DNA from: Bdellovibrio sp. GT3
GTDB lineage: Bacteria > Bdellovibrionota > Bdellovibrionia > Bdellovibrionales > Bdellovibrionaceae
NCBI RefSeq assembly: GCF_037996765.1
Contig: NZ_JBBNAD010000004.1
Coordinates: 248,001-312,000, forward strand
Direction: 5' to 3'
Length of the DNA stretch: 64,000 bases
The notes under the pieces were generated by a model. That model ran no database searches, had not been told where the DNA came from, and saw nothing but the letters and a program-made list of their open reading frames with translations. The position numbers and the translations under genes are program-made. This document shows positions 32,554 to 37,485 of the stretch, one piece after another (positions within the stretch are counted from its first letter, which is position 1; each line of letters begins with the position of its first letter).

Positions 32554-34320
32554 ATGGCGTTCAATTATGAAAAACACAAAAGTAGCCATTCCGAAGACAG
32601 CTTCTGGACATCATATTCAGACTTGTTCCTGGGACTCAGTACGATCTTTCTACTATTATATGTAGTGGCGAGTCTGAGAACGGGAACTGATGCGCTCAGA
32701 GGCCAAATCGAGAATCAAAAGCTATCGATGCAAGTCGAAGAATTACAACATCAGCTCAAAATGTATGAGTCGGTGAAGAATGACTATTTGGCGAATCAAG
32801 CGTCAAAAGACGAGGCTCAGGAATACCAGGAGTTGATGGATAAGCTGACTCTTTTGCAAGAGGATGCGAAATCGGAAAAAGACAAGCTGGTGCAACAGGC
32901 TTTGGAAAACGACAAAAAGGCCAAAGCACTTAATAAGTATCAGCAGATGGTGCGCAACGTGATGAATGCCAACAAGATGGCGAAATCCAAGATCATCAAT
33001 CGTGACGATTTGATCAAGGATCAGGACGTTGAAATTGCTGACCAGGAAGTTGAGATCAAGGATTTGAATCAGGATATTCAGCACAAACAACAGTTGATCG
33101 CCCAGGGCGAAAAGCAGATTGCTGACACTGAACAGTCGTTGCAGCGTCGGATGAATGAACTCCGCTACGCTTATAAGCAAAACAAACTGAATAAAACGAA
33201 ATTTGAACAGCAGATGGCTGCGGCAAAAGCGGATGCGAATTCCAAGATCAATGGACTTAGCAATGCCAATGCTCAGTATCAAGCGCAGTTGCAGGAAGCC
33301 AACGATCAGTTGGGACAAACTCAATCTGACCTGAGCAAAACCAAAGGAATGCTGGCACAGAAAGAGGGCGAAGCCCGTGGCTTGCAAGGTCAGTTGGGTG
33401 AAGCCAAAGGACAGCTGGGTAAAACGCAAAGCGAATTGGCCAGCACTCGCGGTGCTTTGTCACAGACTTCCGGTCAATTGGCAGCCACCCAAGGCGAACT
33501 TGGACAAACGAAAGGTCAACTGGGTCACTTGAAAGGCAAAGTTGGCGAACTTGAAGGGGAGCTGGGAGCTACCAAAGGGGCATTGGGTTCCGCAAAAGGA
33601 CAATTGGCCGCTGCACAAGGAGAACTTGGGCAGGCAAAGGGTCAGTTGGGTAACCTGAAAGGCCAAGTGGGCAATCTGCAAGGTCAGGTTGGTAACTTGA
33701 AAGGCCAACTGAATGCGACGGAGGGACAACTGGCAACAGCTCGTGCCGAAATTGAAGCGCGTAAAGCTGTGGCGAATGAAATCAGCAAGGGTTTTGCAAA
33801 AGCCGGTATCAAAGCTGAAATCGACGGTCAGACGGGCGATGTCGTTTTGGATTTCGGTCAGCAATACTTTGATTCTGACTCGGACAGATTGAAACGTGAA
33901 ATGAAGGGTGTGATCGAAAAAGCCATGCCGATTTACTCGCGCTCGCTATTCGGCAATCCGAAAATCTCTGACAAGGTTTCAGCAGTTGAGATCGTGGGTT
34001 TCGCTTCTCCTACGTATCAAGGTCGTTTCATCGACCCGAACAGCAGTAAGCCAGGTGATAAAGAAGCATTGAAATACAACATGGATCTTTCATATCGTCG
34101 TGCGAAGTCGATCTTCAACTATATGTTGGACGAAGACAACGTGCGCTTTGAACATCAAAAACAATTGATGGGATTGATGAAAGTCTCAGGACGAAGCTTC
34201 CTGGAGGTCATGAAAGTTCAGAATCGAGGCGTGGCGACAGCTGCCGAGTTCTGTAAGCAAAATGACTGTAAAAAAGCTCAGCGGGTAATTATCCGCTTCA
34301 GCATGGATCAAAAGAAATAA
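32554..34320 (+). CDS. MotB-like protein: TM Asp, long Gly/Gln heptad coiled coil, OmpA-like C terminus
   Basis: 588 residues. The N terminus has SFWTSYSDLFLGLSTIFLLLY, one transmembrane helix (about 24-41) with an Asp at residue 23, matching the MotB/ExbD/ZorB position of the proton-carrying Asp. A coiled coil (about 45-415) follows; its second half is a regular heptad repeat rich in GQLG, KGQ and GEL units. The C terminus (about 420-588) is OmpA/MotB-like: VVLDFGQQYFDSDSDRLK, VEIVGFASPTYQGRF, LSYRRAKSIFNYML. By family logic the coil and OmpA domain are periplasmic and bind peptidoglycan. A coil of 370 residues is far longer than in flagellar MotB. The next gene encodes the channel partner 12 bp downstream. 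Confidence 0.78.
   Translation: MAFNYEKHKSSHSEDSFWTSYSDLFLGLSTIFLLLYVVASLRTGTDALRGQIENQKLSMQVEELQHQLKMYESVKNDYLANQASKDEAQEYQELMDKLTLLQEDAKSEKDKLVQQALENDKKAKALNKYQQMVRNVMNANKMAKSKIINRDDLIKDQDVEIADQEVEIKDLNQDIQHKQQLIAQGEKQIADTEQSLQRRMNELRYAYKQNKLNKTKFEQQMAAAKADANSKINGLSNANAQYQAQLQEANDQLGQTQSDLSKTKGMLAQKEGEARGLQGQLGEAKGQLGKTQSELASTRGALSQTSGQLAATQGELGQTKGQLGHLKGKVGELEGELGATKGALGSAKGQLAAAQGELGQAKGQLGNLKGQVGNLQGQVGNLKGQLNATEGQLATARAEIEARKAVANEISKGFAKAGIKAEIDGQTGDVVLDFGQQYFDSDSDRLKREMKGVIEKAMPIYSRSLFGNPKISDKVSAVEIVGFASPTYQGRFIDPNSSKPGDKEALKYNMDLSYRRAKSIFNYMLDEDNVRFEHQKQLMGLMKVSGRSFLEVMKVQNRGVATAAEFCKQNDCKKAQRVIIRFSMDQKK
33250..33760 (+). repeat. Internal heptad-repeat DNA in the MotB-like gene
   Basis: About 500 bp of imperfect 21-bp units encoding GQLGxxK/Q-type heptads, with Gly recurring at fixed heptad positions. 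Such DNA can expand or contract by slippage. Confidence 0.7.
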
Positions 34321-34332
34321 AAGGGGTGGGAC

Positions 34333-35238
34333 GTGAATAAGGCTGCTTTAGCTCAATATTTTATCCTGGGACTGCCATATGCAATGGGTGTGGTGTTCTT
34401 GCTGGGATTGTTTTTCCGCGGAGTTATTTACTTCACGGTTCGTCGTCATGAATGGTTTGCGATCGAGTTTGAAAAACGCGTGAATCGCTACATGCACGCC
34501 GAAGTGCCGGGCAAAGTGAAAGACGTGTCTTTCTATGTCCTGTCCAAGCGTATGCTGGAAAGAACATACTACGAAATTTTTGAAGTTCGCGATCGTATGA
34601 AGCGCCGTAAGCCGGACTCTGTGATGGCGGGCAGTGATCGTATCTTTTTGATCCGTCAGGGCTGTGCTTGGCTGGTAAAAGATATTCTGAAGCAATTGAA
34701 GTTCTTGAAGTGGACGGAAGGCACGCCTAAGTTGATCAATATCACAAAAGCGACGTTCCAGCACAATCCGTGCTTCAACCGTGTGTTTGGTATCTTCCCT
34801 ATGTCAGGTTTGAATGACCTGATCAGCTTGCTTCCGGGTTTATTCGTTATCGGGGGGATCCTCGGGACCTTCGTCGGTATCGCCGGCGGTCTTCAGGAGC
34901 TGGGTACGATGAACATGCAGGACCTTGAAGGCACGAAAAACATCATGGACCGCTTCCTTCATGAGATTTCCTTCGCAATGGGAACATCCATTGCTGGTAT
35001 CGTGTTCTCGCTTTTATCTCATATTACAAATACGATGTTCAGCCCGGACCGCTCTTATGTGGCTATGGTGGATCGTTTCGAAAGTGCCCTTGATCAATTG
35101 TGGTACCGTGCCGATAACAATGATTATCCGGATCACGAAAAACCATTTGATGAACACCGCGATGCTGTTGAGGCTTTGGCCGAAGATGCTCTGAACAAAG
35201 AGATCGGCAAAGCTCCGACGGTGCAACGGGGGGCTTAG
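34333..35238 (+). CDS. TolQ/ExbB/MotA-family proton-channel subunit
   Basis: 301 residues with three predicted transmembrane helices: one near the N terminus (about 8-32), then LLPGLFVIGGILGTFVGIAGGLQEL (about 158-182) and FAMGTSIAGIVFSLLSHIT (about 215-235). GILGTFVGIAGGL and the small-residue-rich AMGTSIAGIVFSLL are the conserved channel helices of TolQ/ExbB/MotA. A cytoplasmic loop of about 120 basic residues lies between helices 1 and 2. The start is GTG, with GGGGTGGG 2-8 nt upstream. It sits between the MotB-like gene and an FHA gene in one operon, so it should form the stator channel with the preceding product (inference). Confidence 0.82.
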   Translation: MNKAALAQYFILGLPYAMGVVFLLGLFFRGVIYFTVRRHEWFAIEFEKRVNRYMHAEVPGKVKDVSFYVLSKRMLERTYYEIFEVRDRMKRRKPDSVMAGSDRIFLIRQGCAWLVKDILKQLKFLKWTEGTPKLINITKATFQHNPCFNRVFGIFPMSGLNDLISLLPGLFVIGGILGTFVGIAGGLQELGTMNMQDLEGTKNIMDRFLHEISFAMGTSIAGIVFSLLSHITNTMFSPDRSYVAMVDRFESALDQLWYRADNNDYPDHEKPFDEHRDAVEALAEDALNKEIGKAPTVQRGA

Positions 35239-35274
35239 TCCTCGAGTGAGGGCTCAGTCAGGAGCTAGTTAGAT

Positions 35275-37485
35275 TTGACAAAGTTTACGGTAACCATCCA
35301 CAGGAAGGATCAATCGATCACCAAAGAGGTGATGAAGGATTCCTTTACCATTGGTCGTTCCTTGGATTGTGACCTGTCTCTAAATGATACGCACGTCAGC
35401 CGCGTGCATCTAGTCGTGAACCGCCGTTGGAACCAGATCTGGATCGAAGATAAGAACTCCTCCAACGGCACCTTCTTAAACAGCAACAAAATGGTTCAAG
35501 GAACCCCGGTGAATGTGACCAGCAACGATCGCATTCAGCTGGGTCGTTCTGACTTTATCCTGGTGATTGACCTGGAGACCGATGATGTTCACCCGCCGAT
35601 GCCGGAATTGGAACCAGAAGCTGTTCCTGAAGTTCCCGCTCAGGTGATGACAGCACCTCGGACCTCAGCTGAAGCATCTGGTGAAAAAACCGGACACGAA
35701 GACACCGTTGCAATGCCAGCCCCGGCAATGGCGCCATTTCAGGCCGAAAAGATTCTCCATGATGCGAAAAGAGCAGCAGCTCAGATCGTGCTTGAAGGGG
35801 AGAAGCAGGCCGAGAAACGCACACAGGCTATTTATCAAAAGGCCCGTGATTCCCAGGCACAGGCGGAAATCTTCTATCAAACTCGCATCGCGGAAGCGCA
35901 TAAAGAGGCGGATGCAATTCTTGCGGACTATCAACGTCAAGGGCATCAACTGCTTCATGATGCGCGTAATATGGCGCAGGAACTCCGTGAGGAAGTCGAT
36001 GTCTATGTGCAAAGCCTTCGTCAAAAGGCCAAAGCCGATGTCGAGGAAATTGTCTCAGAAGCGACTTTGAATTCTGAAAAACTGAAAACCGATGCGCTGG
36101 AGCACGCCCGTGTGACTGCGCAAAACGAAAACGCGGCTTCCATTCGCGATGCGAAAGAAGAAGCGGTTCGAATTATTGAATTCGCACGCATGCAGGCCCA
36201 GCAGACGCATGAGCAGCTGGTCGGTGTGAAAGATGACCTGCTTAAAAACTCAAGTGCACTGGCGGTTATCAAGGAAGATCTGGAAACCGCACGTTCGGCT
36301 TTGGCTAAGACCCTGGCTGACACAACAGAGCTTAAAGAGACTTCTGAGAAACAGTACAGTGACCTGCAGGCAAAGTCCCAGGCGGAACTGCGCGCGATCA
36401 CTGAAAAGGTGGCGGCTCAGAATACAGCTCTTGAGGCCTTGCAAAAGTCCATCGACGAAAGCTCCAAGAAAAGTCAGTCCACAGAGGACAGTCTTAAGAA
36501 GCTTCAGGGCAAACAGGCGAACCTGGAATTTGAAGTCAGCGATATCGAAAACAAAAAGAATCATCTGTTCAAAGAATTTGACGCCCAGAAGATTTTCCTG
36601 AACGAGAAATTGGAAAAGGAAAAATCCCAGATCGCCCGCAGTGAAGAGGAGCGACTGGAGGAAATGCGTTTGGAGATGGCAAACCGCCTTTCCAAAATGG
36701 AGCAGGATCTGGTTGAAGATATCATGACCAAAAAAGCGGGCATGATCAGAGACATCCACATGGCTATCGAAAAAGAAGTCGTGCAAGTGCTGGATGTGAG
36801 CGAGTGGAATAAAATCAACGACAAAGTTCAGCAGCAAGTCACAGAGGCTGTCGAAGGCCGCGTGTCTTCGATTTCGCAAAACTCTGTCACTGTGTCAAAA
36901 CCCGCAGACATCGTAAAGAAACGTAAAAACGAAAAAGTGCGCTGGATCACGACGGGCCTGACTGCAGGCGCCTTGGGGCTGTTTGTCGCGCAGATCGGTT
37001 ACGACATTGTTCGCAAGGATTCAAATCCTTTGCAGACCCGTGCCCAACAGGAAGCCGTTGCGCGCGCCCAGGATCTGGAGCGCCGTCGCTTTAATCCTCA
37101 ACAAACGGAAGAGATCAAAGACACCTATACAGATGCTGTGATCTATACGAGCAACTTCAGCCAAATTTATCTGGATAATGATTTTCAGCAAAGACTGTAT
37201 AAGAGTGCTTCCCAATATCTGCTAAAAACATGGCGTATTGATGAGGATAAATCCTTGCAGGTATTGGCCGCTGCCAACGCCTTGGTTAAGGAGCTTCAGG
37301 ATCGTCGTAATAAAATTCATCCGGATTTTGTAAAAGACGGCATCGAAAAAATGCATACCCTGGAAAAAGAGAACATGAACCGCATGAAAGACATTCTGGG
37401 TTCAGAAGTCCGTCTTGAGTCCTTCAGACGTTTCGAAAAGAACTTCTATAAAGAAGAAGTCGACCGGAAAATCGTTCAGCATTAG
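35275..37485 (+). CDS. FHA-domain, coiled-coil membrane protein of the motor-like operon
   Basis: 736 residues. FHA domain at about 5-85: FTIGRSLDCDLSLNDTHVSRVHL, with GRS and SRVH for phosphothreonine contact, and SSNGTFLN. Then a Pro/Glu-rich linker, a coiled coil of about 390 residues (about 160-550), a transmembrane helix at about 556-576 (TGLTAGALGLFVAQIGYD) and a C-terminal helical domain of about 160 residues that would be periplasmic. FHA domains read phosphothreonine, so a Ser/Thr kinase may regulate recruitment. The TTG start is forced by an in-frame stop three codons upstream; GGAG is 11 nt before it. It is 36 bp after the channel gene. Confidence 0.78.
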   Translation: MTKFTVTIHRKDQSITKEVMKDSFTIGRSLDCDLSLNDTHVSRVHLVVNRRWNQIWIEDKNSSNGTFLNSNKMVQGTPVNVTSNDRIQLGRSDFILVIDLETDDVHPPMPELEPEAVPEVPAQVMTAPRTSAEASGEKTGHEDTVAMPAPAMAPFQAEKILHDAKRAAAQIVLEGEKQAEKRTQAIYQKARDSQAQAEIFYQTRIAEAHKEADAILADYQRQGHQLLHDARNMAQELREEVDVYVQSLRQKAKADVEEIVSEATLNSEKLKTDALEHARVTAQNENAASIRDAKEEAVRIIEFARMQAQQTHEQLVGVKDDLLKNSSALAVIKEDLETARSALAKTLADTTELKETSEKQYSDLQAKSQAELRAITEKVAAQNTALEALQKSIDESSKKSQSTEDSLKKLQGKQANLEFEVSDIENKKNHLFKEFDAQKIFLNEKLEKEKSQIARSEEERLEEMRLEMANRLSKMEQDLVEDIMTKKAGMIRDIHMAIEKEVVQVLDVSEWNKINDKVQQQVTEAVEGRVSSISQNSVTVSKPADIVKKRKNEKVRWITTGLTAGALGLFVAQIGYDIVRKDSNPLQTRAQQEAVARAQDLERRRFNPQQTEEIKDTYTDAVIYTSNFSQIYLDNDFQQRLYKSASQYLLKTWRIDEDKSLQVLAAANALVKELQDRRNKIHPDFVKDGIEKMHTLEKENMNRMKDILGSEVRLESFRRFEKNFYKEEVDRKIVQH

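Follow-up and report, generated by a model that had tools for sequence, protein, structure and literature searches.

Among the 5:2 motors, the closest described relatives of the system reported here are found in ZorAB of Zorya types I and II, whose structures place the Asp of the B subunit within a ring of Ser/Thr residues of the A subunit; ZorB binds peptidoglycan (PMC11890865). In Myxococcus xanthus, GltG, which combines an FHA domain, a transmembrane (TM) segment and a TonB-like region, interacts in two-hybrid assays with AglR of the AglRQS motor (PMC3169522). A survey of MotAB relatives has reported many non-flagellar homologues with unknown function, some of which have very large periplasmic domains (PMC12505986). 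Here, we analyzed a three-gene cassette at positions 32554-37485 of a 64,000-nucleotide stretch of Bdellovibrio sp. GT3 (the window; contig NZ_JBBNAD010000004.1, positions 248,001 to 312,000, forward strand). The cassette encodes a MotB/ZorB-like subunit, a MotA/ZorA/TolQ-like channel subunit, and an FHA protein with a coiled coil and a TM segment (the partner). We conclude that it is a real and conserved, apparently undescribed variant of the 5:2 motors; no paper describing it was found in a literature search that had most subscription papers outside its reach.

The three genes lie on the same strand with gaps of 12 and 36 bp (Table 1). The first-pass annotation, made from the letters of the stretch, had proposed an operon of these genes, and the open reading frames (ORFs), their order and their coordinates agree with it. 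This gene order recurs in most loci examined and in several families, which is more than chance would give. Across seven families of the taxonomic order (30 loci), the MotB-like gene lies upstream of the channel gene wherever the contig extends far enough, and the FHA gene lies downstream of it with few exceptions, while the remaining neighbours vary. The three-gene set is the sole unit conserved between the families of Bdellovibrionota. Most of the 80 loci read in GTDB genomes also have an ORF matching the FHA profile, the profile of the partner's C-terminal domain, or both, immediately after the channel gene. Contigs labelled Streptomyces, Actinomycetota or Thioalkalivibrio were treated as binning errors, which is unproven.

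The channel subunit (E ≤ 1e-72) was found in 107 of 291 Bdellovibrionota genomes, and the C-terminal domain of the partner (E ≤ 1e-19) in 98 of the 291; 95 genomes have both, 12 have the channel alone, and three have the C-terminal domain alone. The Fisher p value for the co-occurrence was 6e-59, shared ancestry being ignored. The 12 channel-only genomes are an upper figure, because in G297 the contig breaks off within an FHA gene whose start it still shows. In one genome (G007) the locus is split, with the MotB-MotA pair at 2.11 Mb and the partner, still kept, at 1.20 Mb. In B. reynosensis LBG001, the order NTR-Rrf2-MCP-FtsY-SDR-LDT is intact and exactly the three cassette genes are absent, leaving a gap of ~500 bp. 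The first-pass annotation had made its reading depend on conservation of the FHA gene with the other two, and the outcome favours it: these data show such a gene unit and its co-inheritance. It could be argued that the genes are mere neighbours that share no complex, since MotB-MotA pairs without a partner exist. However, the gene order is kept across families while other neighbours change, all three genes are lost together in LBG001, and both halves are retained after the split in G007, so that we find this explanation hardly credible.

In the MotB-like protein, the single hydrophobic segment contains W18, S22, D23 and L24, which are invariant in 27 homologues, and its sequence 'FWTSYSDL' aligns to 'FWISYADL' of ZorB. 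Residues 399-560 match the ZorB1 model (PADLOC, E = 3e-29), and Pfam OmpA gives a weak match to the same C-terminal part. The motif Y508-N509-xx-L512-S513-xx-R516, whose five named residues are also invariant, falls in this part, where 'YNLDLSYRRA' aligns to 'YNLHLSLQRS' of ZorB. The ZorB1 match and the YN-L-R motif point to a peptidoglycan-binding domain. Two cysteines of this domain, Cys567 and Cys572 (window 34252-34269), are invariant in the 27 homologues, and a disulphide is possible.

Proline is absent from residues 1-458 of the MotB-like protein and first appears at residue 459. A coiled coil of about 370 residues had been described in the first-pass annotation; this is a fair description of residues ~42-410, although a clear heptad period of 3.5 is confined to residues ~240-375. 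Glycine makes up 21% of residues 280-400, and Gly-rich heptads extend over ~279-400. These heptads, of the form GQLGxxK, are encoded by 21-bp repeats. The stalk length varies among close relatives: the MotB-like protein of locus L032, where the channel subunit is 93% identical, is 549 aa long, against 588 aa in GT3. Matches to crescentin, Fez1, SMC and lamin were set down to coiled-coil similarity.

The channel subunit has three hydrophobic TM segments. It matches Pfam MotA_ExbB weakly (E = 0.017) and the ZorA model better (E = 6e-11), and the channel profile finds the ZorA chains 8vvn (E = 4e-8) and 8qyh (E = 5e-7). We modelled it with AlphaFold from 46 aligned sequences (pLDDT 82), and ZorA, ExbB or TolQ chains took 24 of the 25 top VIA rows (Z 10-12.6, mostly over ~200 residues). 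The model thus has the A-subunit fold of the MotA/TolQ/ExbB/ZorA superfamily. T179 and S219, located in TM2 and TM3, are invariant in the 46 sequences, and the subunit pair therefore has both the B-subunit TM Asp (D23) and the A-subunit TM Ser/Thr residues of the superfamily. By analogy with ZorAB, T179 and S219 may line the site of the Asp, and the B subunit may bind the wall. These profile, fold and residue matches, together with the conservation of the FHA gene, bear out the earlier description of a stator- or motor-like pair from the 5:2 family that is accompanied by an FHA protein. One further locus (L166) has an 819-aa ORF that matches the channel profile and overlaps a MotB-like ORF in another frame, a possible fusion or frameshift.

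The FHA domain of the partner is well supported (Pfam PF00498, E = 3e-17, 63 bits against a cut-off of 20.7). Among 24 homologues, G27, R28, S42, R43 and H45 are invariant and N64 is nearly so. In FHA domains such residues usually form the phosphothreonine pocket, and we take them to do so here, with the putative signature G27R28, S42xxH45 and N64G65. A Pro-rich linker precedes a Pro-free stretch (155-542), and a modest hydrophobic segment (557-579) follows the basic KKRKNEK; because this basic stretch precedes the TM segment, the N-terminus is probably cytoplasmic. Solved structures gave no clear match to the modelled C-terminal domain (best Foldseek E 1.4 and best VIA Z 6.3, both to unrelated helical proteins), which does not show that the fold is new. 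Residues 155-310 (window 35737-36204) have a hydrophobic period of ~3.7, which is hendecad-like, and match archaeal ATP synthase subunit H weakly (E = 4e-4), recalling peripheral-stalk proteins. Extra or solitary copies of the C-terminal domain occur away from any channel gene in three genomes.

Table 1. Coordinates of the cassette and of related loci (positions are those of the window unless a locus or genome number is given).
Feature	Position	Strand	Description
MotB/ZorB-like subunit	32554..34320	+	588 aa from ATG; TM with Asp23 (17-41), Pro-free coiled-coil stalk ~42-410, predicted OmpA-like peptidoglycan-binding domain ~410-588
21-bp repeats within the stalk-coding region	33386..33708	+	one heptad each
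MotA/ZorA/TolQ-like channel subunit	34333..35238	+	301 aa; TM helices ~10-30, ~160-186, ~205-232; without long C-terminal tail
FHA partner	35275..37485	+	736 aa from TTG; FHA ~1-97, Pro-rich linker, coiled coil 155-542, TM ~557-579, helical C-terminal domain ~580-736
TM and C-terminal domain of the FHA partner	36883..37485	+	modelled alone, all helical, pLDDT 94
Partner genes with degenerate or missing FHA pocket, TM and C-terminal domain kept	L137, L141, L145, L146, L150, L151		
ZorAB-like pair and cyclic-nucleotide-binding protein	L162:5312-8658, L163:4154-8517, L164:7079-10694, L169:6873-10089		
ZorAB-like pair and cyclic-nucleotide-binding protein	L184:5427-8617, L185:7224-14024, L186:5178-8869, L187:7356-10847		
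Further ExbB-family/FHA pairs in the source genome	G000:C1:165610-168466, G000:C5:950658-958509		
Extra or solitary C-terminal-domain copies	G051:C10:18911-19489, G124:C1:190944-191444, G316:C39:16943-17476		
ORF matching the channel profile	L166:6443-8902		819 aa

The cassette shares with ZorAB the channel fold, the TM Asp in its FW-SY-DL context, and the peptidoglycan-binding motif on the B subunit, and ZorA and ZorB are its closest characterized relatives by profile. This could suggest an anti-phage system of a divergent Zorya type, in which the FHA protein would act as effector or sensor. However, the scores fall far below the Zorya cut-offs (42 of 100 bits for ZorA_2, 23 of 400 bits for ZorB1). 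The channel protein is without the long structured cytoplasmic tail of ZorA: it ends at 301 aa, with ~40 mostly low-confidence residues past the last long helix of the AlphaFold model. Furthermore, the B stalk is very long, and an FHA/TM partner replaces ZorC/D or ZorE. The first-pass annotation had noted that Zorya partner genes were not seen here, and indeed the ZorC/D, ZorE and ZorF/G effector models had zero matches among the cassette neighbours; nor did Pfam match the third protein to any nuclease or helicase domain.

In the window, the cassette is surrounded by NTR, Rrf2, MCP and FtsY, and its position is fixed within the genus Bdellovibrio, with NTR-Rrf2 upstream and FtsY downstream. 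No defence genes lie near it, the PADLOC matches among the neighbours being weak and on the GTPase core of FtsY. A defence role, which the first-pass annotation had listed among its options, is disfavoured because the chromosomal locus is conserved and the neighbours are not defence genes, and we regard a Zorya-type system as very improbable.

Other known systems resemble the cassette in part. The flagellar MotAB stator also has a TM Asp and a peptidoglycan-binding B subunit, but MotA has four TM helices where the channel subunit has three. TolQR(A) and ExbBD(TonB) share the three-TM A subunit and a bitopic third subunit; their B subunits, however, are of the short ExbD/TolR type, and their third subunit has neither an FHA domain nor a cytoplasmic coiled coil. 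The Pfam model Yop-YscD_cpl matches the partner (E = 3e-13), and YscD/SctD, the inner-membrane ring protein of type III secretion systems, likewise has an FHA-type cytoplasmic domain and then a single TM segment. The partner differs from it by the long intervening coiled coil and the all-helical C-terminal domain, and no secretion genes were found among the neighbours examined.

AglRQS-GltG is an ExbB-family motor with an inner-membrane FHA partner, as proposed here. However, the C-terminus of GltG is TonB-like and that of the partner is helical, and the B subunit of the cassette has a peptidoglycan-binding domain. The partner scores 24 bits against the GltG equivalog cut-off of 650, over the N-terminal region only, and the AglRQS/GltG gliding genes of Bdellovibrio are Bd0828-0838. 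MotA_ExbB and FHA each match nine times in the source genome, and these matches include two further ExbB-family/FHA pairs whose genes lie within ~2-8 kb of each other. The arrangement of FHA beside an ExbB-type motor is therefore recurrent, given these pairs and GltG-AglR (PMC3169522), and the earlier claim of novelty for an FHA subunit in a motor of this type is not supported. New here are a ZorAB-like, wall-binding pair combined with a partner made of coiled coil, TM segment and helical domain, and an apparent exchange of FHA for a cyclic-nucleotide (cNMP) reader in a related clade.

We propose, with about an even chance of being right, that the cassette encodes a ZorAB/TolQR/ExbBD-type motor driven by protons or sodium ions, in which the FHA protein would be the third subunit and a switchable arm. 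A presumed pentamer of the MotA-like protein would surround a dimer of its MotB-like counterpart, and the coiled-coil stalk of the latter, in the periplasm, would hold the OmpA-type domain on peptidoglycan. The third subunit would lie in the inner membrane, with its helical C-terminal domain probably in the periplasm, its long coiled coil in the cytoplasm and its FHA domain at the N-terminus. We speculate that it takes the role of the cytoplasmic tail of ZorA, as an arm recruiting, switching or coupling the motor to cytoplasmic structures. Most probably, the motor of attack-phase cells would exert force between peptidoglycan and some structure of the cytoplasm or the envelope.

The third protein might instead be the moving output, as has been suggested for TonB, TolA and GltG: the motor would pull or rotate its TM segment, the C-terminal domain would act on the envelope, and the FHA domain would merely recruit. 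The FHA-TM protein GltG interacts with AglR and has been proposed as a transmitter of motor work (PMC3169522), and the partner's TM segment and C-terminal domain persist even in proteins with a degenerate or lost FHA domain. On the other hand, Pfam found no TonB/TolA-type C-terminal domain in the partner, and the helical model has no clear match. TonB and TolA carry a known TM histidine, which is absent from the partner's TM segment, and the MotB-like subunit has a peptidoglycan-binding domain of its own. We consider such a transducer possible but doubtful.

Several observations weigh against the proposed motor with a switchable arm. The Foldseek E-value of the channel model is no better than 2e-3. 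A straight helix of 350 residues would measure ~52 nm, more than the width of a usual periplasm, which means that the stalk has to be folded back, tilted or interrupted. Near residues 203-222 the MotB-like protein has a conserved stretch that resembles a turn (e.g., YKQNKLNKTKFE) and could serve as the fold-back. In one clade of Bacteriovoracaceae/Halobacteriovoraceae (Bacteriovorax/Halobacteriovorax; support 100/99), the Arg, Ser, His and Asn of the FHA pocket are lost or the domain is missing, and the TM segment and C-terminal domain are retained. In g25 and part of f17, the MotB-MotA pairs have no recognizable partner. Because of this clade and these pairs, phosphothreonine gating cannot be the core of the mechanism, and the gating put forward in the first-pass annotation is not a general property. 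Nevertheless, since the pocket is kept in the Bdellovibrio branch, a Ser/Thr kinase could control the arm there, which is speculative; the source genome has three such kinases above the cut-off, none of them within the locus.

In a separate clade of similar, ZorAB-like MotB-MotA pairs in Bdellovibrionota (support 100/100), the next gene encodes a cyclic-nucleotide-binding protein of ~150 aa in all eight loci read, which were chosen among the weaker channel matches and are not a random sample. A protein of this kind in third position is what one would predict for a third gene that acts as a signal input. Tentatively, the cassette may belong to a previously undescribed Bdellovibrionota family of 5:2 motors that are anchored to the wall and whose third subunits, the signal readers, are exchangeable (a phosthothreonine-reading FHA protein in one branch, a cNMP-binding protein in another, a silent or absent reader in others); kinase or second-messenger signals would then engage or release the motor. 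In one of the eight loci (L185) the MotB-like protein has 1758 aa.

The copy in strain HD100 is probably Bd1167-1169, as found by counting genes back from an L,D-transpeptidase taken as Bd1176 (weak YkuD match). In a 2010 array paper, the only relevant one found among papers naming genes of Bd1163-1174, Bd1167 is called "crescentin-like" and its expression falls on predation. The crescentin rod model also matches the MotB-like protein here, which fits this identity and is no proof of it. The HD100 copy is thus probably an attack-phase gene.

A machine for intraperiplasmic life or for prey entry, the latter suggested by the first-pass annotation, would suit such expression. Nine invasive Bdellovibrio strains carry the cassette (HD100, Tiberius, kdesi, SSB218315, KM01, NC01, SKB1291214, W and ZAP7; strain names throughout are putative assignments), and it is absent from the epibionts P. 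exovorus JSS and Ca. B. qaytius. However, all three genes are also absent from LBG001, which is grouped with the invasive strains in the strain table of PMC11656739; the cassette is therefore not needed for invasion, and the link to predation through epibiont absence was dropped. Pseudobdellovibrio metagenome-assembled genomes (MAGs) carry it too, as does about a third of the sampled Bdellovibrionota, Oligoflexia MAGs included, and the predation transposon-sequencing paper does not name Bd1167-1169 in its main text. We therefore consider a prey-entry role unlikely.

For Bdellovibrio itself, the motor proposed above would correct the old reading of HD100 Bd1167 as a coiled-coil protein like crescentin: Bd1167 is most likely a membrane-anchored, wall-binding motor subunit. 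Known 5:2 motors differ in attachment, and their switching is poorly understood. If the third gene of one motor family does encode an FHA protein in some members and a cNMP-binding protein in others, this would provide a genetic handle on motor switching.

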